DNA of 64,000 bases from Bradyrhizobium sp. AZCC 2262 (GTDB lineage Bacteria > Pseudomonadota > Alphaproteobacteria > Rhizobiales > Xanthobacteraceae). Below, piece by piece: positions 47,349 to 64,000 of this stretch (the first letter of the stretch is position 1; each line of letters starts with the position of its first letter). The stretch lies in contig NZ_JAZHRT010000001.1 of assembly GCF_036924535.1 (NCBI RefSeq), positions 1,488,001 through 1,552,000 of the forward strand, written 5' to 3'. The notes beneath the pieces are model-generated. The model was not told the DNA's origin. It searched no databases and saw only the letters and a list, made by a program, of their open reading frames with translations. The position numbers were made by a program, and so were the translations under genes.

Positions 47349-47380
47349 AAAAAAGCGCGGCGGGATGGCTCCCGCCGCGC
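47349..47380 (-). terminator. Rho-independent terminator
   Basis: Arms GCGCGGCGGG and CCCGCCGCGC with loop ATGGCT; six A residues on the left give a T-run on the minus strand. Confidence 0.85.
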
Positions 47381-47443
47381 TCCAACCCTTGTACTCGCTG
47401 GTCCAGGCCTGAGAGCGCCCGGAGCCAGGCCTTCAAACGGGGC

Positions 47444-47488
47444 CTAGCGGGCGATCCCAGCGAGGTGACAGCGCTTGGTAAAAGACAC
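47444..47488 (-). CDS. Possible 14-residue leader peptide
   Basis: GTG start directly after AAAGGAGGTGATCCA, encoding (M)SFTKRCHLAGIAR and a TAG stop. The exceptionally strong ribosome site so close to a start codon is the main evidence. It could be a leader peptide or a ribosome-binding decoy in a small RNA. Confidence 0.35.
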   Translation of the reverse strand: MSFTKRCHLAGIAR

Positions 47489-47649
47489 TGGATCACCTCC
47501 TTTCATTGTTGATGGAAACATCGATATAGGCGGCGAATCGGCCCCTGTTAAGGGCCCGGACCGGCCGATGGGGTATCCCCGGGATGTTCGGACGGGACCG
47601 GCGGGGGCGGGTTGAGGCCGCCTGCACGGCGTGTTAGTTCATCGCCAGC

Positions 47650-47723
47650 GCGGGTGTAGCTCAATGGTAGAGCAGCAGCCTTCCAAGCTGAATACGAGGG
47701 TTCGATTCCCTTCACCCGCTCCA
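47650..47723 (+). tRNA. tRNA-Gly(UCC)
   Basis: Acceptor GCGGGTG/CACCCGC, D-arm GCTCAATGGTAGAGC, anticodon loop CTTCCAA (TCC), T-arm GGGTTCGATTCCC, T discriminator and encoded CCA. It is the integration site of two tandem islets: its 3' 44-45 bases recur at 55239 and 58416. Confidence 0.97.
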
Positions 47724-47724
47724 G
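47680..47724 (+). repeat. Attachment-site core in intact tRNA-Gly (copy 1)
   Basis: 45 bases from CTTCCAAGCTG through the CCA end, identical to 55239-55283, and identical over 44 bases to 58416-58459. A TTCTGACA motif follows at 47760-47767. Confidence 0.9.
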
Positions 47725-48086
47725 ATAATTCAATAACTTAGCACGAATTCTCGATCTTATTCTGACAACACGGCTGCTTACCGATCTAAATTCGTCAGTT
47801 TTTCCAGTTTGGCGAAATGACGTTATCACCACGGCAACTGATCGCACTCCTCCGGGCGAGGCCATTCATGCGATCCCGCTCGGAGCGATTTGCCAAAGTT
47901 AGCCCAGATTTGCCCATGATGGATTGGAGCGAGAGATCAAGAAGCGAGAATCGCTCATCTGAACGCGATACCCCTCAATTGATTATCTCGATAGAGCCAC
48001 GTTTTCGCGAATATCTGACGATTGTCTCGTTCAAACGGGCATGACGTCACCCCGATAACAACGAATGAGCGAGAGACAGGCCAAGC

Positions 48087-48803
48087 TTAATCTGTCTGCA
48101 GGAAAAGCTCGACGCCCTCGTTTGCCATCATGCGCTGCACGGCCGGCCTTGCAATGGTACGTGCCGTTAGACGCGTCCAAGCTGGGTAAAGCCCGCGCAT
48201 GTCCAGATCGATGCGTGTGCCCCAATAATAGAATACGAAGAGATATGGATCGACGACAGTATATCCCTCTGGCACGGCCCATTGACGCCCGTCTGAGAGC
48301 AAGCTTTCGATATAAGCATACTGATCCGAAATGTTTTCCTTGCCTCGGATTCTTAGTGCAGGAAATGAATTCTCGTCATTCGTGAATCGCTGGGGTCGCC
48401 AAATTTGCCCGTATGACATCGCATGCACGTTACCGGCCAGCCAGTTCATCCATTCGATACACCTCGCTTCAGCGGCCGGCTCTGCCGGTAGTAGTTTGGC
48501 GGACGGGTTCGTACGTGCCAGATAGATGAGAATAGCGGGCCCCTCTGTGAGAAGGTCTTCGGCGCCGCCGATGCGGCCAGCAACGCCCAGCAACGCGGGT
48601 ACACGCCCTTTTGGGTTCATTGCCTTCCACTCCTGCGTCGCAGTCATCTCGCCCTCCTTGAGTCCTGAGGCTGAGACTAACTTCTGGTCGTATGGTTCGC
48701 CGATCTCCTCCAACACGATATGTACGGCCATCGAGCAACTTCCTGGCGAGTAGTAAAGTCTGTGCTTAGCGATAGTCGGAGCGGAAAGAGCTGAGAAAGT
48801 CAT
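48087..48803 (-). CDS. Glutathione S-transferase
   Basis: A 238-residue cytoplasmic GST. The thioredoxin-like domain starts HRLYYSPGSCSMAVHIVLEE (catalytic Ser/Cys region) and includes GRVPALLG and LLTEGPAILIYLA; the helical domain follows with EARCIEWMNWLAGNVHAM. It probably conjugates glutathione to electrophiles. ATG 48803 follows AGGAGA by 8 bases, and the gene begins 2 bases after the stop of the upstream reductase, so they form one operon with the MFS gene. Confidence 0.9.
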   Translation of the reverse strand: MTFSALSAPTIAKHRLYYSPGSCSMAVHIVLEEIGEPYDQKLVSASGLKEGEMTATQEWKAMNPKGRVPALLGVAGRIGGAEDLLTEGPAILIYLARTNPSAKLLPAEPAAEARCIEWMNWLAGNVHAMSYGQIWRPQRFTNDENSFPALRIRGKENISDQYAYIESLLSDGRQWAVPEGYTVVDPYLFVFYYWGTRIDLDMRGLYPAWTRLTARTIARPAVQRMMANEGVELFLQTD

Positions 48804-48805
48804 GG

Positions 48806-49786
48806 CTATTTCTCCTGAATGCGCCATGAGGGGCGTTGTAGCCAATTCACGGCAGGAAATTCCGGAACGATCCCACGCCGACTCGCTACGGCCCAATCGC
48901 CGTCGTAGTAGTGAGCGAGAATGTGGTCGTAACGGAGCGTCTCGGCGACGCCGGCGAGATCGTGGATACGCCGGACCAGCGCCGACAGACGTGGATAGTC
49001 GATGAGCCGCCTGCGGCTCGCCCGGAACAGCGGATTGTACACGGTATCGAAACGCACAAGCGGCGGATAAACCAGGACATCGGCGAGCGTCGGCTGTTCA
49101 CCCAGGAGAAATCGACGGCCGTCGCAAAGCTGTAAGTCGAGATCATCGAGGAAGCCGAACAGGTCGTCCATCGCAGCGTCGTATTCCTGCTGATGCCTGG
49201 CGTCGGCGACCGAGTAGACGCCGACCGCCAGGCTCCTCGTGATCCGATTGTTCAAATCGTCCATCGCGGACCTCAGGCTTGCTGGGGAAAGGTTGATGCG
49301 GGGATCACTCCCGAACCTGTCGAAAGCATCGTTCAACATCTGCGCGATCTCCAGCGACTCGTTGTTTACGATTCGACGAGAATGCTGGTCCCAGAGGACC
49401 GGGACGGTGACCTTGCCGGTGTAGTCGGGGCGCGACGCGCGATATGCCTCATGCAAGCGAAGGAATCCGTTACCTGCACGATCGACGGTCGACGAGCCGG
49501 TATCCGAGAAAGCCCAGCCATCCATTGTGTCCCAGAGAGGATGCAGGATCGAGAGGTCGACAACGCTTTCGAGGCCCTTGAGTGCATGAACGATAATGAC
49601 GCGATGTGAAAACGGACAGGCAGGCGAAACATAGAGATGGTAGCGCCCAGCCTCCGCAGGGAACCCGGACGTTCCGTCTGCCGTGATGCAGTCGCGAAAA
49701 CTCCCGGCATGGATCATCCGCCGCGCGTCGAGCTCGGGCGTTGCATCAACATCGCCCCGCCAGGTTCCGTTGATCATCAGCTTCAT
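48806..49786 (-). CDS. Glutathionyl-hydroquinone reductase-like (Xi/omega-class) GST
   Basis: A 326-residue protein of the Xi-class. RYHLYVSPACPFSHRVIIVH holds the catalytic Cys (CPW-like motif with Phe in place of Trp), TVPVLWDQHSRRIVNNESLEIAQML the glutathione-binding cis-Pro and ES residues, and the C-terminal domain is helical. Such enzymes remove glutathione from hydroquinone conjugates. ATG 49786 (MKLMINGTWRGD) is chosen; an in-frame extension upstream is not conserved in type. It lies between the MFS and GST genes. Confidence 0.88.
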   Translation of the reverse strand: MKLMINGTWRGDVDATPELDARRMIHAGSFRDCITADGTSGFPAEAGRYHLYVSPACPFSHRVIIVHALKGLESVVDLSILHPLWDTMDGWAFSDTGSSTVDRAGNGFLRLHEAYRASRPDYTGKVTVPVLWDQHSRRIVNNESLEIAQMLNDAFDRFGSDPRINLSPASLRSAMDDLNNRITRSLAVGVYSVADARHQQEYDAAMDDLFGFLDDLDLQLCDGRRFLLGEQPTLADVLVYPPLVRFDTVYNPLFRASRRRLIDYPRLSALVRRIHDLAGVAETLRYDHILAHYYDGDWAVASRRGIVPEFPAVNWLQRPSWRIQEK

Positions 49787-49811
49787 CGTGTCCTCGCCGG
49801 CCCAAACGACC

Positions 49812-51255
49812 TCAGTCTGAGGCTTGCCGCTCGCCGGGCAGCCAGAGTGACAGCACACCGGCCAGCGCAAGTAGCGCTACGTTGCAGCCGAGGGCGAGAA
49901 TGAAGGCGTGCGCATAGGCATCCAGATCCTGGCGCGTCCCAAGGGCGCTGTAGAATACACCGCCGATGATCGCGACGCCGAGCGCCGCGCCGACCTGAAA
50001 GGTCGAGATCATGATCCCCGATGCCAGCCCGGCATGGCGCTGGTCGATGCTGCCGATGACGGCCTTGATGACCGACGGCATGACGATCCCGAAGCCCAAT
50101 CCGCCGCAGGCCAGACCGATCTCCAGACTCTGGGGAAGGACTTTGGCGACCGAGAGCATCACCGCACCGAAGCCGACAACCTGCAGCGCAAAGCCAAGTG
50201 TCAGCGCGCGCACCCCGAGCCACTGCATGACGTAGGACGAGACGAGCGAGCTGACGAAGAAACCGATGGCGAAGGGCAGTGTAGCGAGCCCGGCCGCCAG
50301 CGACGTCTCGTGTAATCCGCTCTGCAGATAGACTGCGAACGTCAGGTAGAACGAGGAGAGCATATAGAAGGCCAAGGCCATCACCAGTCCGATAACGAAA
50401 GCGTTGTTGCGTAAAAGGTCGAGGGCGACCAGCGGGTCGCCGCCACCGGCCGAAAGACGCGCTTCGTAGCGAGCGAATGTCACGAGAGCGAACGGCGACG
50501 CCACGAGCATGGCAATGGTCCACGTGGGCCACCCGGTCTCGCGACCCTCGACCAACGGATAGACCAGCAGGGCTAGGGTCAGTGACAGCAAAACCACGCC
50601 GCCAACGTCGAGCCTTTGAGCCTGGTGCGCACGAGAGTCGCGGAGAAAGAGCAAGCCACCAATGAACGCGGCAACGCCGATCGGTACGTTGATGAGGAAG
50701 ATCGCCTGCCAGGCCAACCCGAAGGGATGAGATGAAACCAAGGCGCCGCCCAGTATCTGACCGCAGATATTGGCCAGGCCGAAGGTAGCGCCATAGAACC
50801 CAAGAGCTCGCCCTTGTTCGGCGGCAGGAAACAGAACGCGGATCGAGGCAAGTACTTGGGGCGCCATCGCTGTAGCCGTCAGACCCTGGAGGATCCGAGC
50901 GGCGACGAGAATAGGGGGCGACCAGGCGATGCCGCATAGCGCGGAGGCGGTCGTGAAGCCGGCCACGCCCAACAAGAACATCCGTCGCCGGCCAAAACAG
51001 GTCGCCCAACCGGCCGCCGGTTATCAGGAACACTGCGTACGTTGCGGCATAGGCCGATATGACGAACTGCACCTCGCTCGAGGTTGCCCCAAGGTCTTGC
51101 CGAATTGCCGGCAGAGCCAGGTTGGCGACATTGAAGTCGAGGATCGGCAGAAATGCACCGGTAAGAAGCACCGGTAGCGCGAGCCAGCGCCGGGGATAAT
51201 CTCCTTCGAGCTCGGCCTGATGGATTTGCGTCGGCTCGGCAATTTGACTGCTCAA
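49812..51255 (-). pseudogene. MFS (DHA2, 14-helix) efflux transporter, frameshifted
   Basis: The N-terminal part (MSSQIAEPTQIHQAELEGDY, TTG start, then LTGAFLPILDFNVANLALPA) runs into GGRLGDLFWPATD, whereas the next frame continues as GRRRMFLLGVAGFTTASALC. Removing one base from the A4 run at 50994-50997 (plus strand) restores the MFS motif GGRLGDLFGRRRMF. The rest is intact to PGERQASD, with about 14 helices in total. Drug:proton antiporters of this type export toxic quinones or drugs. The stop is 25 bases before the reductase start. A sequencing error would make it an intact gene. Confidence 0.82.
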
Positions 51256-51375
51256 CCTCGAACTCCTCTGGCAGATTTTGCGGCGCGCGCCGCCATCGAC
51301 TGGCCTTGAAGCGACTATTTTGCTTATCTATTTGAGAACAGTAATTGTCGATTTCTGCGAAATGAGTTTGCAAAA

Positions 51376-52284
51376 ATGCACATCCCATCCGACTGGAACG
51401 ATCTTCGCGTGGTTCTTGCTGTTTTCCGGGAGGGCTCACTATCGGGAGCTGCGCGAGCGCTCGGTGTGAGGCACTCGACGGTTTTTCGCCGCCTCGACGC
51501 TATCGAGAAAAAGATGGGTGTTCGCCTGTTCGAGCGTTTCCGCGACGGTTATGCACCGACGCCGGCCGGAGAGACCGCGGCTGCGTCGGCGGCCCGCCTC
51601 GAAGACGAGGTGCTAACGCTCGAACGGAAGCTTTCGGGGCAGGATCTAAAGCCGGCCGGTACTGTGCGCGTAACAACAACCGACACACTCAGCGCGATCT
51701 TGATGCGGCATCTGGTCTCGATGCGGGTCTCACATCCGGAAATTCGACTCGAAATCGTCACCTCGAACACGGTTGCCGATCTTACGCGCCGAGAGGCGGA
51801 CGTCGCGATTCGGCCGACGCCAGCGCCTTCCGATCTGCTGGTTGGCCGACGCGTGGCCGATATCGCCCATGCGGTCTATGGTTCAGATGCGTACCTGACG
51901 GGATACGGCGACAAGGACCTGTCTGCTCACGATTGGATCGGACTTGATGACACGCTGGCTAGCACCGTCATCGCACGCTGGATGCGCGAGAACATTCGTA
52001 TGGCGCGTATCTCCTGCCGGGTCGACGCACTTCCTGCTTTGCGGGATGCCGCCGATGCCGGGTTTGGTCTTGCCGTGCTCCCATGCTACGTCGGAGACTC
52101 TGCACCCGGGCTACGCCGATTTGCCGCGAAGGCGCTATCGGAACCTCGCTCGGCTGTCTGGCTGCTCACGCACGATGATCTGAAACACACGGCGCGGATT
52201 CGAGCTTTCATGGATTTTATCGCGAAGGCCCTCGCTTCGGAACGTAATCTTCTGGAAGGGCGGCGCCCGCGCGCCTTACGCTGA
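51376..52284 (+). CDS. LysR-family regulator, divergent from MFS/GST operon
   Basis: A 302-residue LTTR. N-terminal winged helix: WNDLRVVLAVFREGSLSGAA, RALGVRHSTVFRRLDAIEKK; then an effector domain (PAGTVRVTTTDTLSAILMRH onward). HTH residues lie at about 20-45. It is transcribed away from the MFS gene across 120 bases, the classic arrangement for LysR control of a divergent target, so it probably regulates the MFS-reductase-GST operon in response to an electrophile. The ligand is not known. Confidence 0.9.
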   Translation: MHIPSDWNDLRVVLAVFREGSLSGAARALGVRHSTVFRRLDAIEKKMGVRLFERFRDGYAPTPAGETAAASAARLEDEVLTLERKLSGQDLKPAGTVRVTTTDTLSAILMRHLVSMRVSHPEIRLEIVTSNTVADLTRREADVAIRPTPAPSDLLVGRRVADIAHAVYGSDAYLTGYGDKDLSAHDWIGLDDTLASTVIARWMRENIRMARISCRVDALPALRDAADAGFGLAVLPCYVGDSAPGLRRFAAKALSEPRSAVWLLTHDDLKHTARIRAFMDFIAKALASERNLLEGRRPRALR

Positions 52285-52321
52285 GCTCCGAGCTCATGGC
52301 AGGCAACGCCTCTTGCCAAGC

Positions 52322-53194
52322 TTAAGCGCCGTTGCCCGCAGATCCCGCTTGAGGGTGTTCTCGAAAGGCAGTCGCGATCGTTCCAAGCGCCTTGCGAGAC
52401 TTCGTATCGGATAGCGATGAAAGCAGCACAATCTCGGATGAGGGAAGGGGCGGTAGCCCGAACCGGTGGCTGACCTCCACTGTGCCGGGCGGTGCAAGCC
52501 GGAAAGACAATATTGCGGTGGCCAAGCCGGCCGCGACCGCCTCTGAAACGGCAAAGGAGCCACAGCCAAGGAAGACCTCTGTCCACGCTATTCCCGCGTC
52601 GTCGAGCGCACGGGTGGCGATTTCACGCATGTTGCAAGAGGGCGAGGAGGCAGCCAGGCGTAGCGGCTCGCCCGCTCGAAAAATAAAATCTGGAGTCGCA
52701 AACCAACCGAAATGCTCCTGCGTTAGCACTTCGCCGTCTCGTCGGTCCTCTTCGCGGCGGACGATGATCGCATCGATTTCGCCGCGATCGAAAGCGTCGA
52801 GCAGGTCTCGCGAATCGTCGAGCCGCATCTCGATGATGAGGGCCGGATCATATGTATTCAGCCGGGCCAGCAACGTGGGAACCTCCGGTCCGCCGACCTG
52901 GGTCGATATACCTAGCGAGAAACGCCGACGAACCGAGGACAGCCCGGTGAGGGCGCGTTGATGTGCAGCCAGAAAGTCGCGCGCGGAGCCGAGGAACAAT
53001 GCGCCTTGTGCCGACAAGCGCACCCGCCGCGGCGTCCGCTCGATCAATTTCTGGCCTACCCGATCTTCCAGCCGCTTCAGCTTCACACTGATGGCGCCTT
53101 GCGTGGTGCCGAGCGCTTGAGCGGCTCGTGTGAAACTTTGGAGATCTGCGATCGCCACGAAAGCTTCGACGGCATCGACGTCCAACGTAGCCAT
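52322..53194 (-). CDS. LysR-family regulator, divergent from amidase
   Basis: A 290-residue LTTR. MATLDVDAVEAFVAIADLQS, FTRAAQALGTTQGAISVKLK (helix-turn-helix) and KRLEDRVGQKLIERTPRRVR are typical; the effector domain follows (SLGISTQVGGPEVPTLLARL). Start ATG 53194 fits the family; the longer frame adds a non-conserved extension. It is divergent from the amidase across 186 bases, so it likely controls that gene. Confidence 0.9.
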   Translation of the reverse strand: MATLDVDAVEAFVAIADLQSFTRAAQALGTTQGAISVKLKRLEDRVGQKLIERTPRRVRLSAQGALFLGSARDFLAAHQRALTGLSSVRRRFSLGISTQVGGPEVPTLLARLNTYDPALIIEMRLDDSRDLLDAFDRGEIDAIIVRREEDRRDGEVLTQEHFGWFATPDFIFRAGEPLRLAASSPSCNMREIATRALDDAGIAWTEVFLGCGSFAVSEAVAAGLATAILSFRLAPPGTVEVSHRFGLPPLPSSEIVLLSSLSDTKSRKALGTIATAFREHPQAGSAGNGA

Positions 53195-53380
53195 GTCGCT
53201 TATCCGAAATTGTTGTCTCTGAAATATGGATCCATCCGGTTTTTTTATAGTCAACCGACGGCTAGGTTCGCGTCAAGCGCGATCCGCGGCCAAGGCGCGA
53301 GAGTTGAAGAGAAGAGCTCGGGCCGAAATGCGTTGAATGAGGAGACTCCGAATGAACAAGGCGAGCGGGGAAAGAGAGCG

Positions 53381-54877
53381 ATGGATCTATCACGTACAGA
53401 ATTCCTCCGTGGCTTGGCAGCGACGGCAGCGAGCATGACTATGGCCAGCGTACCCACCACGGCCGGATCGGTTACCGGCGTTCACTATGCGACCCTGCTG
53501 GAGACGGCCGATGCTATCAAGTCGCGCAAAATCTCGCCTGTCGAACTGACCAAAGCAATGCTGGACCGCGTCGCAAGGCTTGAACCCTCGCTTCATTCGT
53601 ACGCAACCGTCACATCCGAACTAGCGTTATCGCAAGCCTTTCGGGCTGAAGCCGAAATTGCGGCAGGCCACTATCGTGGGCCACTGCATGGCATTCCCGT
53701 TGCCGTCAAGGATATTTACAACACTGCCGACATCGCGACCACGGCTGGAATGGCGATCTTTGCGGGCCATAAGCCAAATTTTGATGCGACCGTGGTGAAG
53801 CGCTTGGCGGATGCGGGATCCGTGCTGTTGGGCAAGCTCCAGCTAACCGAGGGTGCCTTCGCCAAGCACCACCCGGCGGTAGAAGCACCAAAAAATCCCT
53901 GGAACGCAGACTACTACGCCGGCGCCTCGTCGAGTGGTTCGGGCGTTGCAACGGCGGCGGGGCTCACCTTCGGTTCACTCGGCAGCGACACGGGTGGATC
54001 GATCCGCTATCCCGCCTCCGCCAATGGCGTTACGGGGCTGAAGCCCACCTGGGGACGCGTCAGTAGATATGGCGTATTTCCGCTCGCTCCGAGCATGGAT
54101 CATGTCGGTCCTCTAACCAGATCTGCCGCTGATGCGGGCGCCATGCTTGGCGTGATCGCAGGTCGTGATGCAAATGACCCAACGACGCTGATCGCTCCTG
54201 TGCCTGACTATCTTGCTAATCTCGGCAAGGGAGTGCGCGGACTGCGTATCGGCATCGATCCAGCCTACAATGAGATGGGCGTCGATGCCGATATTGTACA
54301 AGCTCTCCGCGAAACGCGTCGCGTGCTGCAAGGAATCGGCGCGACGATTCAAGAGGTGAAGATGCCAGATTACGAGGCTGTAACAGCGGGATGGGGAGTT
54401 CTCGCTGGAGTCGAGGCAGCTATCGGCCACCATACGACCTATCCATCGCGAGCCTCGGAATATGGCCCCCCGGTGAGCGGCTCGATCTCAGGGTTGATCG
54501 ATTATGGCCGTACCGTCTCGGCCGTGGATCTGATGAAGGTGAACCATGATCGTTTGATTTTCACGGGAGAGCTAACGGCTTTGCTTTCGGATGTCGATTT
54601 ACTGCTGATTCCGACCCAGCCGCTCGCTGATTTTACGATCAAGCAAGAAGCGGAGCTCTTCACGAAGCCGGCCGAACTCAGCGCCTTTTTGCGTTTCGCG
54701 ACCCCGTTCGACATGTCCGGTAACCCGACGCTCACCATGCCAAACGGCTTTACGGCAAAGGGCTTGCCGCTCTCATTCCAATTTGTATGCCGCCACCTCG
54801 ACGAGGGGCTGCTCGTGCGCGCGGGCGACGCATATCAGCAGGCGACGGACTGGCATCGCAGGCACCCCCGGCTTTGA
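53381..54877 (+). CDS. Amidase-signature family enzyme
   Basis: A 498-residue amidase. The Ser-Ser-Lys triad is visible: catalytic Lys in GIPVAVKDIYNTAD, first Ser in YAGASSSGSGVATAAGL and nucleophile Ser in GSLGSDTGGSIRYPA. It hydrolyses an unidentified amide. The N-terminus MDLSRTEFLRGLAATAASMT resembles a Tat signal but lacks the twin Arg, so export is uncertain. A very long in-frame extension upstream (to 52958) overlaps the regulator on the other strand and is not used; ATG 53381 follows AAAGAGAG. Confidence 0.9.
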   Translation: MDLSRTEFLRGLAATAASMTMASVPTTAGSVTGVHYATLLETADAIKSRKISPVELTKAMLDRVARLEPSLHSYATVTSELALSQAFRAEAEIAAGHYRGPLHGIPVAVKDIYNTADIATTAGMAIFAGHKPNFDATVVKRLADAGSVLLGKLQLTEGAFAKHHPAVEAPKNPWNADYYAGASSSGSGVATAAGLTFGSLGSDTGGSIRYPASANGVTGLKPTWGRVSRYGVFPLAPSMDHVGPLTRSAADAGAMLGVIAGRDANDPTTLIAPVPDYLANLGKGVRGLRIGIDPAYNEMGVDADIVQALRETRRVLQGIGATIQEVKMPDYEAVTAGWGVLAGVEAAIGHHTTYPSRASEYGPPVSGSISGLIDYGRTVSAVDLMKVNHDRLIFTGELTALLSDVDLLLIPTQPLADFTIKQEAELFTKPAELSAFLRFATPFDMSGNPTLTMPNGFTAKGLPLSFQFVCRHLDEGLLVRAGDAYQQATDWHRRHPRL

Positions 54878-55143
54878 CGGCGAAGCGCCACCGAAACAAG
54901 AACAGGTCGGCCGCGCCAAGAGATTGACGCAGCAACGACAGCGAGTACGTCATGGGCGCTGACATAGCGGTATTGCCGAGGCCGGTCGTTGCGAAGGTGG
55001 AAGGCGATCTACGAAAAGATGGGAGGCGCTCCCGTCTTGCTGACAGAACATCGTAGCAGCATCTTGGGGGGAGGCGACGCACCAACGTTCCCTGAGCGAC
55101 CAGCGAAACTTCGATCAATAACTTTGTGCAAACACCCCTCTCG

Positions 55144-55283
55144 CCATTCTGACAAAGAGAAACTCCTTAGTGATCTCAATCACTCAGAGATCTACGAAAT
55201 GTCAGAACGGTCTTTGAAAACACTACAGTATTTCCCGACTTCCAAGCTGAATACGAGGGTTCGATTCCCTTCACCCGCTCCAG
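55144..55283 (+). repeat. Attachment site copy 2 with conserved left arm
   Basis: Core 55239-55283 equals the tRNA-Gly 3' end. The 95-base left arm begins CCATTCTGACA (55144) and has TGTCAGAA at 55200-55207. It matches the copy-3 arm at about 68 of 95 bases without gaps. Another TTCTGACA lies 50 bases after the core (55333-55340). The rest of 54878-55238 is non-coding. Confidence 0.85.
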
Positions 55284-55799
55284 CCTTTTCATAGACTTAG
55301 CTCAAGGGACGGCTCTTTTTTTGATGATTTCATTCTGACAAAAGCAGCTTTACATTTTCTGTTGCTCGCTTTTCGACCGACTGTTTTTCGTATCTCGCAT
55401 ATTCCCACACCGCTGTTTTCAGACAGGTGCGAGCTCATCAAGACCGAAGATTTTGGTTTGGCGAAGAGGTGTTGAACGCGCGTGCGGCGATCGGCGGCGA
55501 TGGCGTAAAAATAGGATAGACGGAATATGACGCGCGCGAAGTTTACGCAGATGAAATAGCCAAACGATTGGCCAGTAGTGACGCTTGCGAGGGTGAGCGG
55601 GACTCAGTTCCAAGGTTTCGAGATTGAAGTCGCACGACGACTTGAATGCCATCACCGAAAACGGTTTCGTTCTTCGGTTTCGACGAACTGGTTCGCGTCC
55701 CTTCGGATTATCTCGGCGCCGCCCCGCCTGTCGCGGAGGAGACCCGCAGGGCGCGAATGAGGGCGCCCTCGTCACAGGCTCGCCCTCGAACGTCGCGGT
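55284..55799. other. Non-coding left end of islet 2
   Basis: No supported gene. It holds TTCTGACA at 55333-55340 and otherwise broken frames. It may be degraded mobility sequence. Confidence 0.4.
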
Positions 55800-56672
55800 T
55801 CACGCCGTCACGGCCTTCTGGGCCGCCGCGAATACATCGCGTGCGGACGTTGTACCCACTACGTGCTCCGTGCCGTCGACTCCGAGGTCCATCCATCCTG
55901 CATTCACGGCCTCAAACATTTCTTCGGCAGGTCCGGTGTGGCCCTTCGGGATGCCGAATTGTTCGAACGCTTCCGCCCACCCGGCACGCGGGACTGCAAA
56001 GGCTTTCACGTCGAGATTCAGGACTTCACCCAATTGCTCCGCGATTTCATCCGCGCTGATCATCGAACCAAGCTCGACGACGCGCCGTCCCGACCAGGCT
56101 GGCCCGCTCAAAAGGGTTGCGACTTCCGCGCCGATATCGTTCGTCGCGACCATGGTCGATTTCCGGTTTGTCGGGTTGTAGTAGACCGGTAGCGTTCCGC
56201 TCTGGGCGACCTGCAAGCCGTAGAGGAAGTTTTCGAAGAAGCCGCCTGCGCGCACAAATGCGATTGGGGATGTCAGGTCGCGAAAACCTTGCTCCATGAG
56301 CGACAAGGCCGTGATCATCCCGAGCCCACTGGTTCTGTTCGCGCCCATCGACGAAAGCGCAACCACGCGCGAAGGCGCAGTCTTGGTGAGCGCCTCGACA
56401 TAGTTCGCAATCACGCCCTTGGCTTCTTTGTAATCGGGCGAGGGCGCCCATACAGCCGGCAACATGACGAACGCGCCTTCGACGCCTTTGAGCGCTCGCT
56501 CGATGGCCGCCGAATCATTCCAATCGCCGTCCACCAGTTCCACGCCCTGGTTCGCCCAGCTTAACGCCTTCTCGCGATTGCGGACCAGCGCGCGTACTTT
56601 CTTGCCGTGCGCCAACAGATGTTCCGCCGTTGCGCCGCCCACCTTTCCTGTGATTCCCATTACTAAAAACAT
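55800..56672 (-). CDS. NmrA-like NAD(P)-binding oxidoreductase
   Basis: A 290-residue atypical short-chain dehydrogenase. MFLVMGITGKVGGATAEHLL is the Rossmann GxxGxxG motif, KVRALVRNREKAL the following strand, and FVRAGGFFENFLYGL and MVATNDIGAEVATLL match NmrA/QOR2-type quinone- or redox-sensing reductases. ATG 56672 follows AGGAGA. The DoxX-like gene lies 44 bases upstream on the same strand, so the two form an operon likely controlled by the divergent LysR. Confidence 0.88.
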   Translation of the reverse strand: MFLVMGITGKVGGATAEHLLAHGKKVRALVRNREKALSWANQGVELVDGDWNDSAAIERALKGVEGAFVMLPAVWAPSPDYKEAKGVIANYVEALTKTAPSRVVALSSMGANRTSGLGMITALSLMEQGFRDLTSPIAFVRAGGFFENFLYGLQVAQSGTLPVYYNPTNRKSTMVATNDIGAEVATLLSGPAWSGRRVVELGSMISADEIAEQLGEVLNLDVKAFAVPRAGWAEAFEQFGIPKGHTGPAEEMFEAVNAGWMDLGVDGTEHVVGTTSARDVFAAAQKAVTA

Positions 56673-56716
56673 GTGTTTTCTCCTGATCTTGAGGGACAGA
56701 GCATTGCCCTGTTGGT

Positions 56717-57139
56717 TCAACGGATGAGCGGCAGAAGGGCCCGGATACGGGGATCGCGCGCGTAGAGGCCGCCCCATGTCAGCGCGCCCAGAAGCAGGGA
56801 AATGATTTCCGGCGGCGACCCCAATTCACCGATGCGGACATGGGCGCAGATGGCGCCGCCCAGAAAGCCCGTCACCAGGATCGCGCCGAGGACGGCGGTA
56901 GCCGGGACGGCGTAAAGGATGGCGCAGGCGAGTATGATCGGACCCACGATGCGGGTCAGGTCCATCGCGAACCCGGTTTCCTGCAACATGCCCGCGATCT
57001 GTGCCGGCGCGAAAAGCTGAATAGTGCCATCTGCCACCAGAGCGACGACGACAGCCGCGCTCATGATCAGGCCGGCCCACGGAGCGCGATGCAGGTTCAC
57101 GGCTTCCGGCGCCTGATGAAGGTTCATAGTTTCGGACAT
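56717..57139 (-). CDS. DoxX-like four-helix membrane protein
   Basis: A 140-residue protein with four hydrophobic helices (for example LIMSAAVVVALVADGTIQLF, IVGPIILACAILYAVPATA and VLGAILVTGFLGGAICAHV). This is the DoxX-like layout; members are linked to quinone or thiosulfate redox reactions. FLGGAICAHVRIGE has a conserved-looking His. First gene of the operon with the NmrA-type protein. The specific function is not known. Confidence 0.72.
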   Translation of the reverse strand: MSETMNLHQAPEAVNLHRAPWAGLIMSAAVVVALVADGTIQLFAPAQIAGMLQETGFAMDLTRIVGPIILACAILYAVPATAVLGAILVTGFLGGAICAHVRIGELGSPPEIISLLLGALTWGGLYARDPRIRALLPLIR

Positions 57140-57263
57140 TGGCGTTCTCCGAGAGGGTCATCTGTCTTCGAGGTCTCCTACTTACTGTGTCTCTCAGATG
57201 TGATAAATGTCAGAGAAATGAACCCACTGTTCTCCATAGGATGAACAATGTGGAGGCCCGAAA

Positions 57264-58169
57264 ATGCAGAAGCTTGAGCCCATCCTCATTTTCCTGACGG
57301 TCGCGGAAATGGGGAGCTTTACCCGCGCGGCCGATAGTCTGGGTATTCAAAAGGGAAGAGCCTCAACGGCGGTCCGGAAGCTGGAAGAGGATATCGGTGT
57401 CAGGCTCCTGCACCGGACGACGCGCAGCGTGCAGTTGACGGAGGACGGACGCGCATTTCATGCCCGCGCCCGCGATCTGCTTGCTGAAGTCGATGACCTA
57501 CACTCGATGTTCGCAGGTGATCGCGTGGCGCTCCGCGGGCGTTTGCGGGTCGATCTTCCAACCGAGGTGGCGCGCACAACGATCGTGCCGGCCTTGCCGG
57601 ATTTCATGGCGACTCACCCCGAGTTGGAGCTGGAGGTGTCGAGTACGGATCGGCAAGTTGATCTGGTTCAAGAGGGGTTCGACTGCGTATTACGGCTTGG
57701 TCCCATCAGGGACGAGACGCTGATTGCCCGCTCACTGGGCTTGTTGCGCGTGGTCAACGCCGCCAGTCCCGCCTATCTGGCACGCTACGGCGTCCCTCGA
57801 TCGCTGGAAGATCTCCAGCGTCAGGGACACCGGTCAATTCATTTTTCGACGACGCTGGGCGCGCGACCCTATGGATGGGAATATCCGGACGGCGACAGCT
57901 ACGCGACGCTTCAGTTGCCAGGTGCGCTACACGTCAACAGCGCGCAGACCTACGAAGCCGCTGCCCTCGCCGGTCTTGGTCTGATTCAAGCGCCACTCTT
58001 GGGGATCGGCCGATACTTAGAGAGTGGAGCGCTTGTGGAGATCATGCCCGATTTTCGTCGCCGGGCGCTCGCCGTGTCCCTCGTCGTGGCACACCGGAGC
58101 AATCTGTCGCGCCGAGTCCGCGCATTCATGAAATGGATCGAAGATGTGCTCGCGCCCTATCTAGAGTAG
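57264..58169 (+). CDS. LysR-family regulator of islet 2
   Basis: A 301-residue LTTR of the CrgA-like subgroup: LEPILIFLTVAEMGSFTRAA, DSLGIQKGRASTAVRKLEED (helix-turn-helix) and VRLLHRTTRSVQLTEDGRAF, then an effector domain (RGRLRVDLPTEVARTTIVPA). The subgroup commonly controls adjacent redox enzymes. It is divergent from the DoxX-NmrA operon across 124 bases and probably regulates it. GGAGG near 57250 precedes the ATG. Confidence 0.92.
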   Translation: MQKLEPILIFLTVAEMGSFTRAADSLGIQKGRASTAVRKLEEDIGVRLLHRTTRSVQLTEDGRAFHARARDLLAEVDDLHSMFAGDRVALRGRLRVDLPTEVARTTIVPALPDFMATHPELELEVSSTDRQVDLVQEGFDCVLRLGPIRDETLIARSLGLLRVVNAASPAYLARYGVPRSLEDLQRQGHRSIHFSTTLGARPYGWEYPDGDSYATLQLPGALHVNSAQTYEAAALAGLGLIQAPLLGIGRYLESGALVEIMPDFRRRALAVSLVVAHRSNLSRRVRAFMKWIEDVLAPYLE

Positions 58170-58756
58170 CGTAACGAACCGCTCCGTCCTGCCCTCGAAA
58201 TCACATTCTGAGTTATGTCTGTCGGCGGCGGTTGCACTGTGGGGTGTGTCGTTCTGTCAAACGACCGTTTGCAAGAGTGATACACCGGACGGACACAGCA
58301 ATGCCAAAGGCAGCCCACGACCATTCTGACACTGAGAAATTCTGTAATGATCTCAAGGGATCGAAAAGCTGCAAAATGTCAGAATGGCCTTTGAAAGTGT
58401 TTCAAGATTTTCTGACTTCCAAGCTGAATACGAGGGTTCGATTCCCTTCACCCGCTCCAAATAAAATCAGACACTTAGTAGTGATTTTCGATCCATTTCG
58501 TATGTCGCGAGCTGGTGCAATCGCGGTTTCCGAAAAGCCGAGCATTACCGGACGTTTCCATCCGTGCCGCCGTTTAGTTCGAAGCGTTACGAGTGACTCC
58601 GTGTGACATGGTTCGTGTGCACGCAATGCGGCGCCGCCTGCTCGGTGAACATCACGCCAAATTGGCATGACATGCCGAGTCGATGCTCCCTGTTTTGTAC
58701 GGGCTGGCGTGGATTAGGTTAGAGCGTTTAACAAAGGGTACCCACTGACGCTGCGG
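58170..58756. other. Non-coding right end of islet 2 and flank
   Basis: Contains the copy-3 attachment site (58321-58459). Beyond it no gene is supported up to 58756; the leftward frame through the tRNA-Gly fragment is spurious. Confidence 0.5.
58321..58459 (+). repeat. Attachment site copy 3 with conserved left arm
   Basis: Core 58416-58459 is identical to the tRNA-Gly 3' end over 44 bases. The arm has a perfect 11-bp inverted pair: CCATTCTGACA at 58321-58331 and TGTCAGAATGG at 58377-58387. Both sites are the same distance from the core as in copy 2 (95 and 39 bases). Confidence 0.88.
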
Positions 58757-58969
58757 CTATCCACAGCCTGCACAAGCACTGGGGCCCCTGTCTAACCAAT
58801 ACTCGGTCTGCTCGTCTGTCCAACCCGGGACAGCAAAGTGTGCTCCGGCCGGCAGATCGTGGCTGGGTCGAACGATGACATGTTGGCGCGGTTTGAAATG
58901 ATGCACTCCGACAGCGTCGGCGGAAGCACACAGAGCGATCAACAGGCCCAAGGCAAAAAGAGAACGCAT
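58757..58969 (-). CDS. Small exported protein, unknown function
   Basis: A 70-residue protein. Signal peptide MRSLFALGLLIALCASADA, then VGVHHFKPRQHVIVRPSHDL and FAVPGWTDEQTEYWLDRGPS, ending in a Cys pair CAGCG. A frequent Bradyrhizobium small secreted protein by appearance; I cannot name a family. ATG 58969 fits the signal peptide. Confidence 0.65.
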   Translation of the reverse strand: MRSLFALGLLIALCASADAVGVHHFKPRQHVIVRPSHDLPAGAHFAVPGWTDEQTEYWLDRGPSACAGCG

Positions 58970-59255
58970 CGCAGTTGCTCCGGACGTTGTCAGCTCTTGA
59001 TCATGTGGTTCTGGCGACCGCGGTCCCAAGCTCTTACGACTTCACGATCGATCAAATCGGCGGGATGATGGGGCATGCGGCGCTATGAGTGCCTAATCTG
59101 CGACGATGCCGGTTAAGCGCAGCAATCAAGGGTTTGGGGCGCGCGCATAGCGTCTTGGGTTGCGCCGCCCGCAAAGGAAAATCTCTGAACGATCCGAAAC
59201 TTTTCGGCGAACCACCCGTACCTCACTGATAGCGGCAATCCGGCAGTATTCGACC

Positions 59256-59510
59256 TTGAGCAAAGCGTCTCACGTGGATCGCTTGAGCGATCAAATCAGA
59301 AGACTTCGCGAGAAGGCCGGCGAGCTTCCCGCCGGCGACGAACGAGACGCATTGCTGCGCAAGGCAGAGCAGGACGAAATTGCATTGCGCTTGATCGAGT
59401 GGATTGCTTCTTCGGGTCAACTTGCTCCCCCTGAAGACCTGATTCCGATCCGAAGACACCGATTACGCCGAAATGATACGCGACGGCGCAGCTCCAGCGA
59501 CTCTCGGTGA
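59256..59510 (+). CDS. Conserved small helical protein
   Basis: An 84-residue protein beginning (M)SKASHVDRLSDQIRRLREKA, with TTG start at 59256. A heptad-like helix continues (GELPAGDERDALLRKAEQDE) and then PPEDLIPIRRHRLRR. The N-terminal part is typical of short conserved proteins in Bradyrhizobium. The Arg/Ser-rich end may be a late frameshift. No known role. Confidence 0.6.
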   Translation: MSKASHVDRLSDQIRRLREKAGELPAGDERDALLRKAEQDEIALRLIEWIASSGQLAPPEDLIPIRRHRLRRNDTRRRSSSDSR

Positions 59511-59516
59511 GACGGT

Positions 59517-60176
59517 TCACTCGCTCATGACAGATCGAATACAGCCTCTCAGCTCGTCAACTCCCTTGGCAATTTGATGCGCGCCAGCCGCCATCAATCG
59601 ATCCGCCTTGTGATAACCCCAGGCGACACCGATCGACCGCAACTGGGCGGCCTGAGCCATCTCCATGTCAAAGGTCGTGTCGCCAATAAAGACCGCATTT
59701 TTGGGCGTTACCCCCGTTGCCGTCAGCGCCTGCAGGAGCATCCCGGGGTGCGGTTTGGAGGGCGCCGTGTCGGCGGCCTGAATGGTTCGAAAAAAGCCGT
59801 TCCATTGCAGTGCTTCCAGCGCGGGGGCGACCGTGTCAGACCTGTGCCCGGTGGCGATGCCCAGAGCAATATCCGAAGTAGAGCTCAGCTCATGCAGAAG
59901 GTCGCCAATTCCGTCGAAAGGCCGTTCGGCGAAGGCGGAATCCGCTCTCAGTTGCGGCAGGAGCAGATCGTAGGCCCTGACCATCTCAAGTATCGGGGCT
60001 GTCGGGCCGGCCAGCTCGGTCAGAATGACATCAAGTGACTTTCCGACCAGCGCAAGACTGTCGGCGGGCGAGGGGACCGGCAACTGAAATTCGGCAAATA
60101 CGATTCGATGGCTCTCCAGAATCAGCGAGCGGCTGTCGACCAATGTGCCGTCGAAATCAAAGATGATTAGTTTCAA
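59517..60176 (-). CDS. HAD-superfamily phosphatase (Gph-like)
   Basis: A 219-residue HAD hydrolase. Motif I IIFDFDGTLVDSRSL provides the nucleophile Asp (residue 7) and the general acid Asp (9), GIATGHRSD motif II, SKPHPGMLLQALTATGV motif III (Lys) and VFIGDTTFDMEMAQAA motif IV. The cap is of the phosphoglycolate phosphatase type. Substrate unproven. It is not in an obvious operon; the membrane protein gene lies 133 bases upstream on the same strand. Confidence 0.92.
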   Translation of the reverse strand: MKLIIFDFDGTLVDSRSLILESHRIVFAEFQLPVPSPADSLALVGKSLDVILTELAGPTAPILEMVRAYDLLLPQLRADSAFAERPFDGIGDLLHELSSTSDIALGIATGHRSDTVAPALEALQWNGFFRTIQAADTAPSKPHPGMLLQALTATGVTPKNAVFIGDTTFDMEMAQAAQLRSIGVAWGYHKADRLMAAGAHQIAKGVDELRGCIRSVMSE

Positions 60177-60309
60177 GGTTGTCTCTCAAAACAGCTTTCG
60201 CGCAATTCGTATGAGCGAACTCTGACGCATCATTTTCATCTCGGCGGGTGGTCTCGATGGTATGCCTGATTGTTGGGACATTGGCGATCTCATGGACAGC
60301 GTCCCGGGT

Positions 60310-61752
60310 TTATCGATGCAGGCACGAATAAACCCGGACCAATTCGCGGGTCTGCACCGGGACGGCAAGCTCCGCATCCTTGTTCCTTGTTGCCGTTCCG
60401 CAGGATAGCCAGAAGTAATTTCCAGCGGGATCGATGACCAGCCGGTTTGGCGAGAAGTTCGAGAGAATGATCGACAGATAAGGGATAGTCGAGAACCACG
60501 ACAGGGGTGCGAGAGTTGGCGAAATCCGCTCGGCTGAGACGAAACGTGGGTCACCGAGCGCAGGGTCGGACTTGCTCCCCATCGCCAGCCCCGCAATTGC
60601 ATCGCGATAATCCATCCATGACGCTACGAATTTCCCGGTTTCGATCGCATGAATCAAGTTCACCACGAGAAAGATCGAGACAAGGGCGCACAGCGTCCCG
60701 TCACGGGGCGAGATCAGGGCGTGCCGCAGCCTCGCTGGTCGATTGAGAACGATCCCTTCTCTGGCCATGGCCGTTATGGCCGCCAACGCGCCGAGCAGGG
60801 GTGTGGCGATGACCAGCGCGGTCCGCAAATAGTAGCGGCTGCTCGCATGGATGGAATGATCGAAACGCAGCAAGTAGATGGACAGCAATCCGAGCAAGAG
60901 TCCGAGAGCGAAAATGCAAGCCCCTCTCGGCAGCCATATTGACAACGATATAAGCATCGCGCCGTAGCCGATGACCGCCGTCAGCAATACCAGGACCAGC
61001 CCTACTTTGAAGATTTCGAGATCGAAGAAGTGCAGTGCAGCCCGCGAGAATGCGTCGGCGTAATAATCATCGGGCGGAAGAGCGAGCTTCGCTGCTGCGG
61101 CCAGTGTCACAATGATTGTCAAGTTGATTGCTGCGCGCACGAAAGTTGCGCTCGATAATCCACGCGGCGTCAGCGTTGCTGCGATGACCAGGAGCAACAC
61201 CAGGGCTCCTTCGTGCGTGAACGCCAGCAGGAGCCACGCGGCAAACACCAGCAAGGTCCCGGCACTGGTCGGTTTCGCATAGTGGCTCAGCGCCAGCGCG
61301 GGCCAGAATATCGCGTGGGCGAGCCACATCTCCGTGGGAAAGCCGAAGATCAGCGGGCAGAGCAGGGCTGTCGACCCGCACGCATAGACGAAGATGATGC
61401 GGCCGGGCGAGCGGTCGCTCGCGTAGGTTACGGCCAGCCCCATCAATGGAGATAGATAGAAAAGCAGCCCATAGGCGATGATTCCAGCCCACGGATTGCC
61501 CGTGATTCGGACGAGTGCTTCGGCGGGCAACAGGGTCAACAGGAAGACGGACGTTCGGCCAGAGATGTTATGCCAATGGAAGGCCCAAACATCCCGGACC
61601 GCGACAGCATACGAAAACATCGCGCCGTCGCCATAGAGCTCGAGCTGATGGAAAAGTGCGATGACAGGGAATGCGACGGACCAACCCAGGCCTGCGCCAA
61701 CGATCAGAAATCGCAACGCACGGTCATCGAAGCGCAGTGCGCGGCCGGACAT
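60310..61752 (-). CDS. Polytopic membrane protein, possibly glycosyltransferase-like
   Basis: A 480-residue protein with about ten or eleven hydrophobic helices, for example FLIVGAGLGWSVAFPVIALF, IVFVYACGSTALLCPLIFGF and LVLVLLTAVIGYGAMLISLS. Acidic or aromatic loop motifs (YGDGAMFSYAVAVRDVWAFH) resemble the loops of GT39-like polyprenol-dependent glycosyltransferases, but no catalytic motif is certain. No ortholog name can be given. Next to a relic of GTP cyclohydrolase II. Confidence 0.6.
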   Translation of the reverse strand: MSGRALRFDDRALRFLIVGAGLGWSVAFPVIALFHQLELYGDGAMFSYAVAVRDVWAFHWHNISGRTSVFLLTLLPAEALVRITGNPWAGIIAYGLLFYLSPLMGLAVTYASDRSPGRIIFVYACGSTALLCPLIFGFPTEMWLAHAIFWPALALSHYAKPTSAGTLLVFAAWLLLAFTHEGALVLLLVIAATLTPRGLSSATFVRAAINLTIIVTLAAAAKLALPPDDYYADAFSRAALHFFDLEIFKVGLVLVLLTAVIGYGAMLISLSIWLPRGACIFALGLLLGLLSIYLLRFDHSIHASSRYYLRTALVIATPLLGALAAITAMAREGIVLNRPARLRHALISPRDGTLCALVSIFLVVNLIHAIETGKFVASWMDYRDAIAGLAMGSKSDPALGDPRFVSAERISPTLAPLSWFSTIPYLSIILSNFSPNRLVIDPAGNYFWLSCGTATRNKDAELAVPVQTRELVRVYSCLHR

Positions 61753-61785
61753 GTCAACGACTGTCCATGCCAGCCATGATACAGC

Positions 61786-62158
61786 TCAGCGCAAATAGAA
61801 GCATTGCAGGTTCACGACTTGGCTCCTGGTTTCGCCGTCGGCAGCGAGGGCGAAGATATCGCTCGTACGGGCCTCCGCGGAAAGCGGCAGTGCCATTGGC
61901 GTCGATGACTCAATCCCGATGGCGCGTGCTCGTTGCTGTGTCACGATCAGCTCCGGCGCATTCGGGCCGCACAGCGCCGCAAATTCGCGCAGCCTTCTGG
62001 TCGTCAAGGCCCTCCACGGGCAAAACGAACAATACCTCGCCAGCGGCGTTAACACGAATTGGCCTTCGCGCTTGCAGTTCGCCCAAAGCGCGACTAACGC
62101 TGGGGTGTGCCTCGTTGCCAAACAGGGCAGAGATTACAGGAGAGTGCGCGGCGTTCAT
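61786..62158 (-). pseudogene. Frameshifted, truncated GTP cyclohydrolase II-like N-terminal region
   Basis: The start (MNAAHSPVISALFGNEAHPS) and PIRVNAAGEVLFVLPVEGLDDQ match the N-terminal extension of RibA-like proteins that sit in rhizobial RibD-containing clusters, recalled from memory. The frame is then lost: one extra base in the TT at 61995-61996 would need removal to continue into RLREFAALCGPNAPELIVTQ and RARAIGI. The frame ends at 61786 and the entire zinc-binding cyclohydrolase domain is missing; a membrane protein gene follows 33 bases later. Confidence 0.6.
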
Positions 62159-62246
62159 TGCGGGACTTTCTTTTACTGGGCGCCTTCGTGGAACACCGAA
62201 AGTCCTGAATCATTCCGACAGAAATCAGATGGATTTTTAAGATCGA

Positions 62247-63101
62247 GTGGCCGATAGTATCATTGATAACTCGCGAGAACCGAATTCTGCCGTGCAGCTT
62301 GGCAATTTCCCCACCCGCAAATTTGCCTTTCCCGATACGTGGGAGAGCTTTGTCGAGCGTTTTCGTAGTGGCCAGCAACCCCTGCCGCAAGCCTGGGCGG
62401 ATCTGTTCGGCCCGTTGTGCACCGGGACGGTGGACGATCTCGTGGTTGTTGGGCAGGTCGGCCAATCGCTCGATGGTCGCGTCGCGACGGCGACGGGCCA
62501 CTCAAAGTACATCAACTGTCCGGCCGGCATCGACCATCTGCACCGGCTGCGCGCGCTGGTCGACATTGTCGTGGTCGGAGTTGGAACGGCGCTGGCGGAC
62601 AATCCGCAATTGACGGTCAGACAAGTCGCGGGTCCACAGCCAGCGCGTGCCGTTATCGATCCGAGAGGGCGCCTGGGAGCAAATGCAAAGCTGTTCGCCG
62701 ACGATGGTGTTCGCCGTCTGTTCATTACGGCAGATGGCTCGCGGGCCACACCGCCCCCCGGCGTTGAGGCCATCACCTTGCCTGCGGAGGACGGCAACAT
62801 TGCACCGTCCGCCATCGTCGCGTCGCTGGCCGCCGCAGGGATGCGCCGGATCTTGATTGAGGGCGGTGCTGATACCGTGTCGCGCTTTATCGCGGCACGA
62901 TGTCTCGATCGATTGCATGTCAACGTGGCGCCCGTCATGTTGGGCGCGGGAGGCCCTGGGATCGATTTGCCGCCGCTCGAACGGGCCGATCAGGCCCACC
63001 GGATGCCGGTCCGCGTGCACAAGATCGAGGACGATGTTCTGTTCGATTGCGACTTGTCTGGTCAGCGGGTCGCAATCGGCGTTGCAAAAAGATCGACATG
63101 A
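62247..63101 (+). CDS. RibD C-terminal (pyrimidine reductase)-family protein
   Basis: A 284-residue protein with the RibD reductase fold in residues 65-280: VGQSLDGRVATATGHSKYIN, GIDHLHRLRALVDIVVVGVG, RAVIDPRGRLG, RILIEGGADTVSRFI and APVMLGAGGPGID. These bind NADPH and the pyrimidine ring. It lacks the deaminase domain, so is not a full RibD. Context with a cyclohydrolase II relic, a methyltransferase and a glycosyltransferase end suggests a flavin- or deazaguanine-like side pathway. GTG start at 62247; the end overlaps the methyltransferase by 40 bases. Confidence 0.85.
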   Translation: MADSIIDNSREPNSAVQLGNFPTRKFAFPDTWESFVERFRSGQQPLPQAWADLFGPLCTGTVDDLVVVGQVGQSLDGRVATATGHSKYINCPAGIDHLHRLRALVDIVVVGVGTALADNPQLTVRQVAGPQPARAVIDPRGRLGANAKLFADDGVRRLFITADGSRATPPPGVEAITLPAEDGNIAPSAIVASLAAAGMRRILIEGGADTVSRFIAARCLDRLHVNVAPVMLGAGGPGIDLPPLERADQAHRMPVRVHKIEDDVLFDCDLSGQRVAIGVAKRST

Positions 63102-63871: not shown

Positions 63872-64000
63872 GCAAGCTTCTCCAGTGCGGTCGCAAAGAT
63901 CGCTGCGGATTGCTGCCAGGTGGGCAGCGTCCGCGCCGCCGCCGATGCCGCGTCCGAGAGGCGGCGGCGCAGTTCGGCGTCAGCGATCACCCGGCGCAGG
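63868..64000 (-). CDS. C-terminal end of a probable glycosyltransferase (partial)
   Basis: Only the last 44 codons are in the window: LRRVIADAELRRRLSDAASA then AARTLPTWQQSAAIFATALE. Helical endings like this close GT-B glycosyltransferases (the DxxLRRRLSxAA pattern and TWxxSA). It runs beyond position 64000. Gene order suggests one operon with the methyltransferase. The identification is contextual. Confidence 0.6.
   Translation of the reverse strand, partial: LRRVIADAELRRRLSDAASAAARTLPTWQQSAAIFATALEKLA

Follow-up and report, generated by a model that had tools for sequence, protein, structure and literature searches.

We analysed a stretch of 64,000 nucleotides from Bradyrhizobium sp. AZCC 2262 (contig NZ_JAZHRT010000001.1, positions 1,488,001 to 1,552,000), called the window below. 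In our genome comparison this strain is G000. In the window, two small gene islets (units 1 and 2) lie one behind the other after an intact tRNA-Gly gene, each is bounded by repeats of the tRNA 3' end, and no recombinase was found in either. Judging from comparison with related genomes, we consider it quite probable that the islets are non-autonomous elements similar to cis-mobilizable elements (CIMEs), which would be served, in cis or in trans, by the integrases of related integrative and conjugative elements (ICEs) or phages. The segments probably ride on conjugative elements carrying a matching integrase.

Core repeats and attachment arms

The last 44 nt of the tRNA-Gly gene, from the anticodon loop on, are repeated exactly at two further places (Table 1), and the first two copies have one additional base in common. 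These three repeats had been pointed out in the original prediction, which was made from the sequence alone; its two cargo units of 7.6 and 3.2 kb correspond to core-to-core lengths of 7,559 bp (unit 1) and 3,177 bp (unit 2). Throughout the genome of 9,475,967 bases the exact core occurs three times in the forward orientation and never in the reverse one, and the reversed controls gave no matches. The identity sets in exactly where the anticodon loop begins, so the loop is probably the place of strand exchange. The 3' part of tRNA-Gly is identical in 255 of the 265 genomes of the genus, and at least two exact cores were counted by hand in 61 of the 265.

Next to the cores we found short sites that we predict to be attachment arms. 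The window contains five copies of the ATTCTGACA motif, where 0.30 would be expected by chance, and each of them lies within 93 bp of a core copy. The left inner ends carry direct sites of the ATTC(T/C)GACA type at +35 to about +60, whereas at the right inner ends two sites in inverted arrangement stand at -93 and -39. The 95 nt that adjoin the right cores of units 1 and 2 on their inner side agree at 68 positions. At either end, both islets have retained an exact core together with arm sites, that is, attL and attR. Sites of the ATTCTGACA type would be bound by a tyrosine recombinase similar to lambda Int. This reading is based on their position, their conservation and the adjacent recombinase gene in relatives.

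The pair of right sites at the exact spacing, together with the core start (at most two mismatches), is present in 41 of the 265 genomes and had no match in the reversed control. To describe whole units, we used the 36 inter-core units from the 33 genomes in which the cores are close enough; two of their boundaries are near-match cores. In 24 of the 36 units a left arm is combined with one or both right sites; 17 of these 24 have no detectable integrase, five an intact integrase and two a remnant. All three arm features are combined in 20 units (15 without an integrase). Eight units have no such ATTCNGACA arms (L080, L081, L083, L090/L091, L096, L097, L098 and L102), so other elements or integrase families use tRNA-Gly too. 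The integrase-less units of G121 and G282 have different arm variants (CTTCCGACA, GTTCGGACA).

It turned out that the left ends differ depending on the integrase. Two left sites at about +35 and about +58 are present in 37 of the 40 distinct left ends beside an integrase and in 5 of the 45 without one (Fisher p 4e-15, a descriptive value only, because related sequences are not independent). The two sites of integrase-bearing ends are 23-24 bp apart, whereas integrase-less ends mostly have one site or two sites about 9-13 bp apart. Identity of at least 0.70 to another integrase-less end was found for 39 of 46 integrase-less left ends, some of them near-duplicates, and 36 of the 46 are just 0.55-0.66 like the nearest integrase-bearing end; the other ten include L005, G105 and G170. 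Thus, most integrase-less left ends resemble each other more than they resemble the integrase-bearing ones, which suggests that the loss of the integrase is mostly old. In the ATTCGGACA type, the integrase gene runs with its 3' end into the second left site, which may therefore disappear together with the integrase. The left arms with a site at +47 to +52 and those with closely spaced sites need more than integrase loss.

Movement of integrase-less units between species

A 6.24-kb integrase-less unit is 99.4% identical in two species (G011 and G066) with rpoB regions that are 95.3% identical. Identity switches at the core: in the last kilobase upstream of this unit it is only 77% (blastn gives 85.6% over 3.4 kb), and beyond the second core the two sequences are unrelated. 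G167 and G246, whose rpoB regions are 91.2% identical, have a 2.9-kb unit in common, with 97.7% identity over 2.67 kb. Relatives of islet 2 are present in the tRNA-Gly chains of G215, G078 and G178, and its left end also occurs in G158; the islet stands behind different neighbours in four genomes. Between G215 and G178 its identity is 95.5% over 2.35 kb (rpoB region 89.2%), and between G000 and either of them about 91%. On this comparative evidence, integrase-less units of the arm-bearing family have crossed between species. Most of the cargo frames are open. Judged by eye from the translations, other islets encode RND (resistance-nodulation-division) pumps, esterases and an autotransporter-like protein. 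In G178 (L100, L166), the islet-2 relative appears to be split over two distant places of the chromosome, as if by inversion.

The chain beyond the window and its empty site

We compared the interval between tRNA-Gly and rpoB with G023 and G028, whose rpoB regions are 96.6% and 96.2% identical to that of G000. G000 has extra DNA from the tRNA to about contig position 1573125. Three further degenerate cores with arm sites lie beyond the window at contig positions 1562282, 1567931 and 1573082 (no matches in 10 shuffles). The chain therefore consists of at least five units of about 7.6, 3.2, 15.9, 5.6 and 5.2 kb, together about 37 kb, with no recognisable recombinase, and the two units of the original prediction were an undercount. 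A partial 21-nt core at contig position 1571540 may divide the last unit, which would give a sixth. The three inner cores are unchanged, and the three outer ones carry 2, 6 and 6 changes. Such a gradient is consistent with units having been inserted one after another at the tRNA.

G023 lacks units 1-4 and has the outermost unit (93% identity) only as far as contig position 1571540. In G028, the sequence that follows the last core in G000 stands directly behind the tRNA with 79% identity; the same comparison at the first core gives 52%, and the random mean is 49%. As judged from these identities, the arrangement in G028 is an empty site. The check proposed in the original prediction, a search of relatives for an empty tRNA-Gly site, was thus successful and supports its view of the repeats as a footprint of site-specific integration.

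Two other approaches to the ancestral arrangement were rejected. A search from the genes at window positions 59400-63200 matched 23 other genomes, but the cargo lies elsewhere: it is away from tRNA-Gly in all nine genomes compared (G018, G019, G023, G025, G064, G075, G102, G120 and G138). A position of EF-Tu beside tRNA-Gly was seen, among the loci compared, only in G041, which belongs to another family; there (L001/L045) EF-Tu lies within about 200 bp after tRNA-Gly. In 14 Bradyrhizobium genomes with both genes placed on one contig, the distance from tRNA-Gly to rpoB is about 34 kb or more. An orphan right end of the arm-bearing family, with a truncated core, lies 1.3 Mb away from the islets in their own genome (G000:C1:2838861-2838973; L165 about 9860-9975), perhaps owing to a rearrangement.

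The integrase family and candidate helpers

Across Bradyrhizobium, the same arms flank elements that encode a lambda-Int-like tyrosine recombinase. The Pfam, PHROGs and NCBIfam scans of four family members gave weak unrelated matches only (at best, DUF4858 in Pfam with E 0.069 and a PHROG with E 0.071), and a sequence search of the PDB gave one irrelevant match (E 0.9). Where the listed members are named, nearly all of them are annotated as "hypothetical protein". The predicted structure has the fold of the tyrosine-recombinase catalytic domain. Its N-terminal part, a possible arm-binding domain, contains strands at residues 15-29 and aligns to full-length 1z1b from residue 6, with a low global pTM (predicted template modelling score) of 0.49. 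In 63 integrase sequences R248, R358, H359 and Y390 are invariant, and K276 is conserved in at least 90%. We take these five residues to be the catalytic Arg...Lys...Arg-His...Tyr positions. The family is also represented in two phage and six plasmid records, all with less than 60% identity.

The integrase clade that matches the islets (G035-type) starts large tRNA-Gly islands in other strains, and the right arms of the islets match those of the G035-type islands both in sequence (78%) and in spacing. Four of the seven matching intervals (G135, G138, G187 and G188) encode a coupling protein of the TraG type along with a DUF3363 relaxase. In G188 the integrase is intact, the right end matches, and the TraG and relaxase genes are both present; the integrase of G187 is in pieces. 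G135 also encodes TrbE, TrbL, VirB8/TrbF, TrbG and ParB, and no degenerate core was found between its integrase and its transfer genes. Thus, ICEs are credible helpers for the islets. Another integrase clade belongs to 12-kb phage-like elements in G017 and G078 (L035, L079), and in G078 the integrase-bearing element stands in tandem with the islet-2 relative. Judged by eye from translations, the G017 element has phage-like head genes (portal, protease), and G078 has long stretches in common with it. Beside the same arms, G027, G130, G015 and G021 have broken or partial integrases.

The original prediction also proposed that an integrase elsewhere in the genome could move the islets. Neither two single queries nor a 63-row profile detected a family integrase in G000, so any helper must enter from outside. 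The profile was applied to nine islet carriers, and five of them have family integrases; that of G078 lies within the chain itself.

Cargo of the units

The scanned proteins of units 1 and 2 belong to metabolic and regulatory families; no mobility domains or transfer genes were detected with Pfam, and every scanned protein of at least 139 aa matched a non-recombinase Pfam family. A hidden Markov model built from 29 integrase frames was run on every frame of 30 aa or more in the 36 inter-core units; its hits were confined to five intact and two broken units elsewhere, and it detected no integrase or integrase remnant in units 1 and 2. Two features of the original prediction, units without a recombinase and LysR regulators beside enzymes (two in unit 1 and one in unit 2), were borne out by these scans. 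Loci with the islet-2 LysR (L232-L311) include Mesorhizobium, Rhizobium, Burkholderia and Pseudomonas, and 78 of the 80 listed have no att core.

Units 3-5 were scanned with Pfam in all 21 listed frames. Four frames had no match, and the rest belong to non-mobility families. The enzymes include a HAD hydrolase, RibD_C and PTPS proteins, glycosyltransferases, an FkbM methyltransferase, an M20 peptidase, an aminotransferase, a patatin and a flavin oxidoreductase; the other families are a cytochrome, EamA, TetR, an NAD-binding protein, UPF0182, DUF308 and a GntP permease. A tRNA-Pro (CGG) reported by ARAGORN in unit 3 (window 63209-63289) is probably false, as it falls within a frame that resembles a methyltransferase and Rfam does not support it at E 0.1. 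Just upstream of tRNA-Gly (window 47354-47511) there is a weak match to the Caulobacter small RNA CC2171, with 50.5 bits against a gathering score of 75.

Table 1. Features of the tRNA-Gly islets in window coordinates (window 58416 is contig 1546416; window 64000 is contig 1552000). Arm sites are predictions; their distances are counted from the adjacent core.
Feature	Position	Strand	Remark
tRNA-Gly (anticodon TCC), intact, integration target	47650..47723	+	Rfam tRNA 72.8 bits
att core copy 1	47680..47723	+	tRNA 3' 44 nt from anticodon loop on
Unit 1	47724..55238		7.5 kb; no recombinase found
Left-arm (P') site ATTCTGACA, unit 1	47759..47767	+	+35 after core
GST (glutathione S-transferase)-like protein	48087..48806	-	GST_N
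GST-like protein	48806..49792	-	GST_N_2, GST_C_2
MFS (major facilitator superfamily) transporter	49812..51255	-	frameshift near 50975 splits gene; two pieces match consecutive MFS_1 parts
LysR-type regulator, unit 1	51376..52284	+	
LysR-type regulator, unit 1	52322..53254	-	
Amidase-signature enzyme, unit 1	53378..54877	+	PF01425
Right-arm (P) site ATTCTGACA, unit 1	55146..55154	+	-93 from core
Right-arm (P) inverted site GTTCTGACA, unit 1	55200..55208	-	-39 from core
att core copy 2	55239..55282	+	
Unit 2	55283..58415		3.1 kb; no recombinase found
Left-arm (P') site ATTCTGACA, unit 2	55332..55340	+	+49 after core
NmrA-like NAD(P)-binding protein, unit 2	55800..56777	-	
DoxX-like membrane protein, unit 2	56717..57139	-	
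LysR-type regulator, unit 2	57264..58169	+	
Right-arm (P) site ATTCTGACA, unit 2	58323..58331	+	-93 from core
Right-arm (P) inverted site ATTCTGACA, unit 2	58377..58385	-	-39 from core
att core copy 3	58416..58459	+	
Unit 3, start	58460..64000		runs to contig 1562281; HAD hydrolase, RibD_C protein, others

Proposed mechanism and alternative explanations

We suggest that an ICE or a phage-like element may integrate beside the units, and that its integrase would then recombine their att sites. The units could leave by themselves, with the integrase acting in trans, or in cis as part of a fusion with the ICE (accretion). They would be transferred with the helper, integrate at tRNA-Gly of the recipient and remain there after the helper departs. 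New arrivals would enter at the tRNA and push older units outward. This order is supported by the three intact inner cores and the three decayed outer ones.

Several observations weigh against such a mechanism. The evidence for it is all comparative, and unit 1 was found in no other compared locus. For the islet-2 LysR, 80 loci from many genera are listed with 76-95% identity, and two of the 80 have a core. The operon itself is thus widespread, and sharing it is not in itself proof of att-mediated transfer. The islet common to G178 and G268 is 94.8% identical against 97.1% in the rpoB region, which fits vertical descent. No family integrase was found with the profile in four of the nine islet carriers (G000, G011, G066 and G246), so their units could move only if a helper came in. 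TraG and relaxase genes were not found in three of the seven matching intervals (G105, G226 and G244), and the far core of G135 has no matching right arm and may not be the true end of the island. The frameshifted MFS gene and the decayed outer cores are signs of remnants. Finally, an integrase could have been present during transfer and lost afterwards, though no remnant of it was found. As to a possible origin of the islets by decay of an ICE or an integrative and mobilizable element, no remnants of mobility genes were found in them, and their right arms are 78% like those of the G035-type islands.

It is possible, though we think it rather doubtful, that the units are plain remnants, which arrived with an integrase, lost it and, no longer mobile, have piled up at a tRNA hotspot. 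The original prediction already offered remnants as an alternative to satellites moved by a remote integrase, and each idea survives in part. Besides the frameshift and the decayed cores, remnants agree with the lack of a helper integrase in G000 and with the decay visible in G027, G130, G015 and G021, and deletion of the integrase could explain the missing second site of the ATTCGGACA type. But units without an integrase have passed from species to species, and their limits lie sharply at the att sites. Furthermore, 17 of the 24 armed units have nothing detectable in place of an integrase, against two remnants and five intact genes; the similarities among left ends (39 of 46 and 36 of 46) indicate that the loss is mostly old; and most cargo frames are open. 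A remote integrase, in turn, has no family candidate in G000. Equally tentative is an integron-like system of kilobase-scale cassettes at tRNA-Gly. Selected regulator-plus-enzyme units with their own left arm would be loaded in one preferred direction by the integrases of visiting ICEs and phage-like elements, and the altered left arm would favour staying, so that a ratchet would stack the units in order of arrival.

We regard an unrelated, unrecognised recombinase as an unlikely agent of movement. The eight armless units of the 36 show that other elements use the same tRNA, the G035-family integrase was itself invisible to three libraries, so that another hidden family is conceivable, and four of the 21 listed frames in units 3-5 have no Pfam match. 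However, every scanned protein of islets 1 and 2 of at least 139 aa has a non-recombinase match, and both the sequence and the spacing of the right arms correspond to those of the G035-type islands. Homologous recombination between the conserved flanks (the tRNA and its neighbours), with the att repeats as passive passengers, seems to us slightly less likely still. The tRNA 3' part, which is identical in 255 of the 265 genomes, could serve as an anchor. But in G011 and G066 the last kilobase outside the unit is only 77% identical, the far side is unrelated and the switch falls at the core; homology at the far end is just about 50 bp; and the exact distances of the arm sites are kept, though this model needs none. 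Non-autonomous islets served by ICE or phage integrases remain the explanation that we prefer.

Many genomic islets seem to be orphans because they have no recombinase nearby. If our explanation is right, the missing partner of such an islet can be named from the sequence of its attachment arms, and the choice between remnant and satellite becomes directly testable. The chain also illustrates how metabolic cassettes may accumulate behind a single tRNA gene in soil bacteria, with the sequence of their arrival still legible. Unrecognised ICEs and islands in Bradyrhizobium would come to light once the integrase family is annotated.

Comparison with known systems

Known systems are compared here as they are described in the relevant passages of the cited papers. 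CIMEs are flanked by att sites, have no integration or transfer genes and stand in tandem behind the 3' end of their target gene, and a related ICE at the same site is their expected carrier (PMC5704250). The islets are similar in their att ends, in their lack of integration and transfer genes and in their tandem order. In contrast to CIMEs (PMC5704250), they form a diverse, genus-wide set of 0.7-25 kb with left-end lineages of their own, and they appear to have been transferred between species while integrase-less. Unlike an integrative and mobilizable element, the islets have no integrase of their own that we could find, either in the islets or in G000.

Many tandem, cargo-rich islands behind one RNA gene are known at ssrA in Dehalococcoides, where 15 islands without an integration module were called possible CIMEs (PMC3146451). 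There, the recombinase is a serine one (the CcrB-like DsiB) and the target is tmRNA; here, we deal with a tyrosine recombinase, arm sites and tRNA-Gly. The microcin H47 island of E. coli is also small, att-flanked and without its own recombinase, and it was shown experimentally to be moved by functions located elsewhere in the cell (PMC3191183). It is a single island with long complex repeats and an unnamed helper, whereas the islets form a chain and have a candidate helper family with matching arms. Integrase-less cassette arrays, or CALINs (clusters of attC sites lacking integron-integrases), depend, together with miniature inverted-repeat transposable elements (MITEs), on a recombinase encoded elsewhere (PMC11389934). 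The repeats of the islets differ from those of CALINs in that they are tRNA-derived att sites with arms, and the units are kilobases long with their own regulators.

In Mesorhizobium, ICEs without symbiosis genes are reported to lie beside a tRNA-Gly gene (PMC8627217), as the Bradyrhizobium islets do. Symbiosis ICEs of Bradyrhizobium are described at tRNA genes for Val, Ile, Glu, Gln, Pro and Arg (PMC9174649). We found no report of a tRNA-Gly islet chain in Bradyrhizobium in a literature search of partial coverage, which is no proof of absence. Tandem cargo modules without machinery, which the original prediction called unusual, have precedents in the Dehalococcoides ssrA islands and in CIMEs. 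Thus, elements of this kind are known. New are the large extent of the family, the naming of a candidate integrase whose elements have matching arms, and the transfer of integrase-less units.

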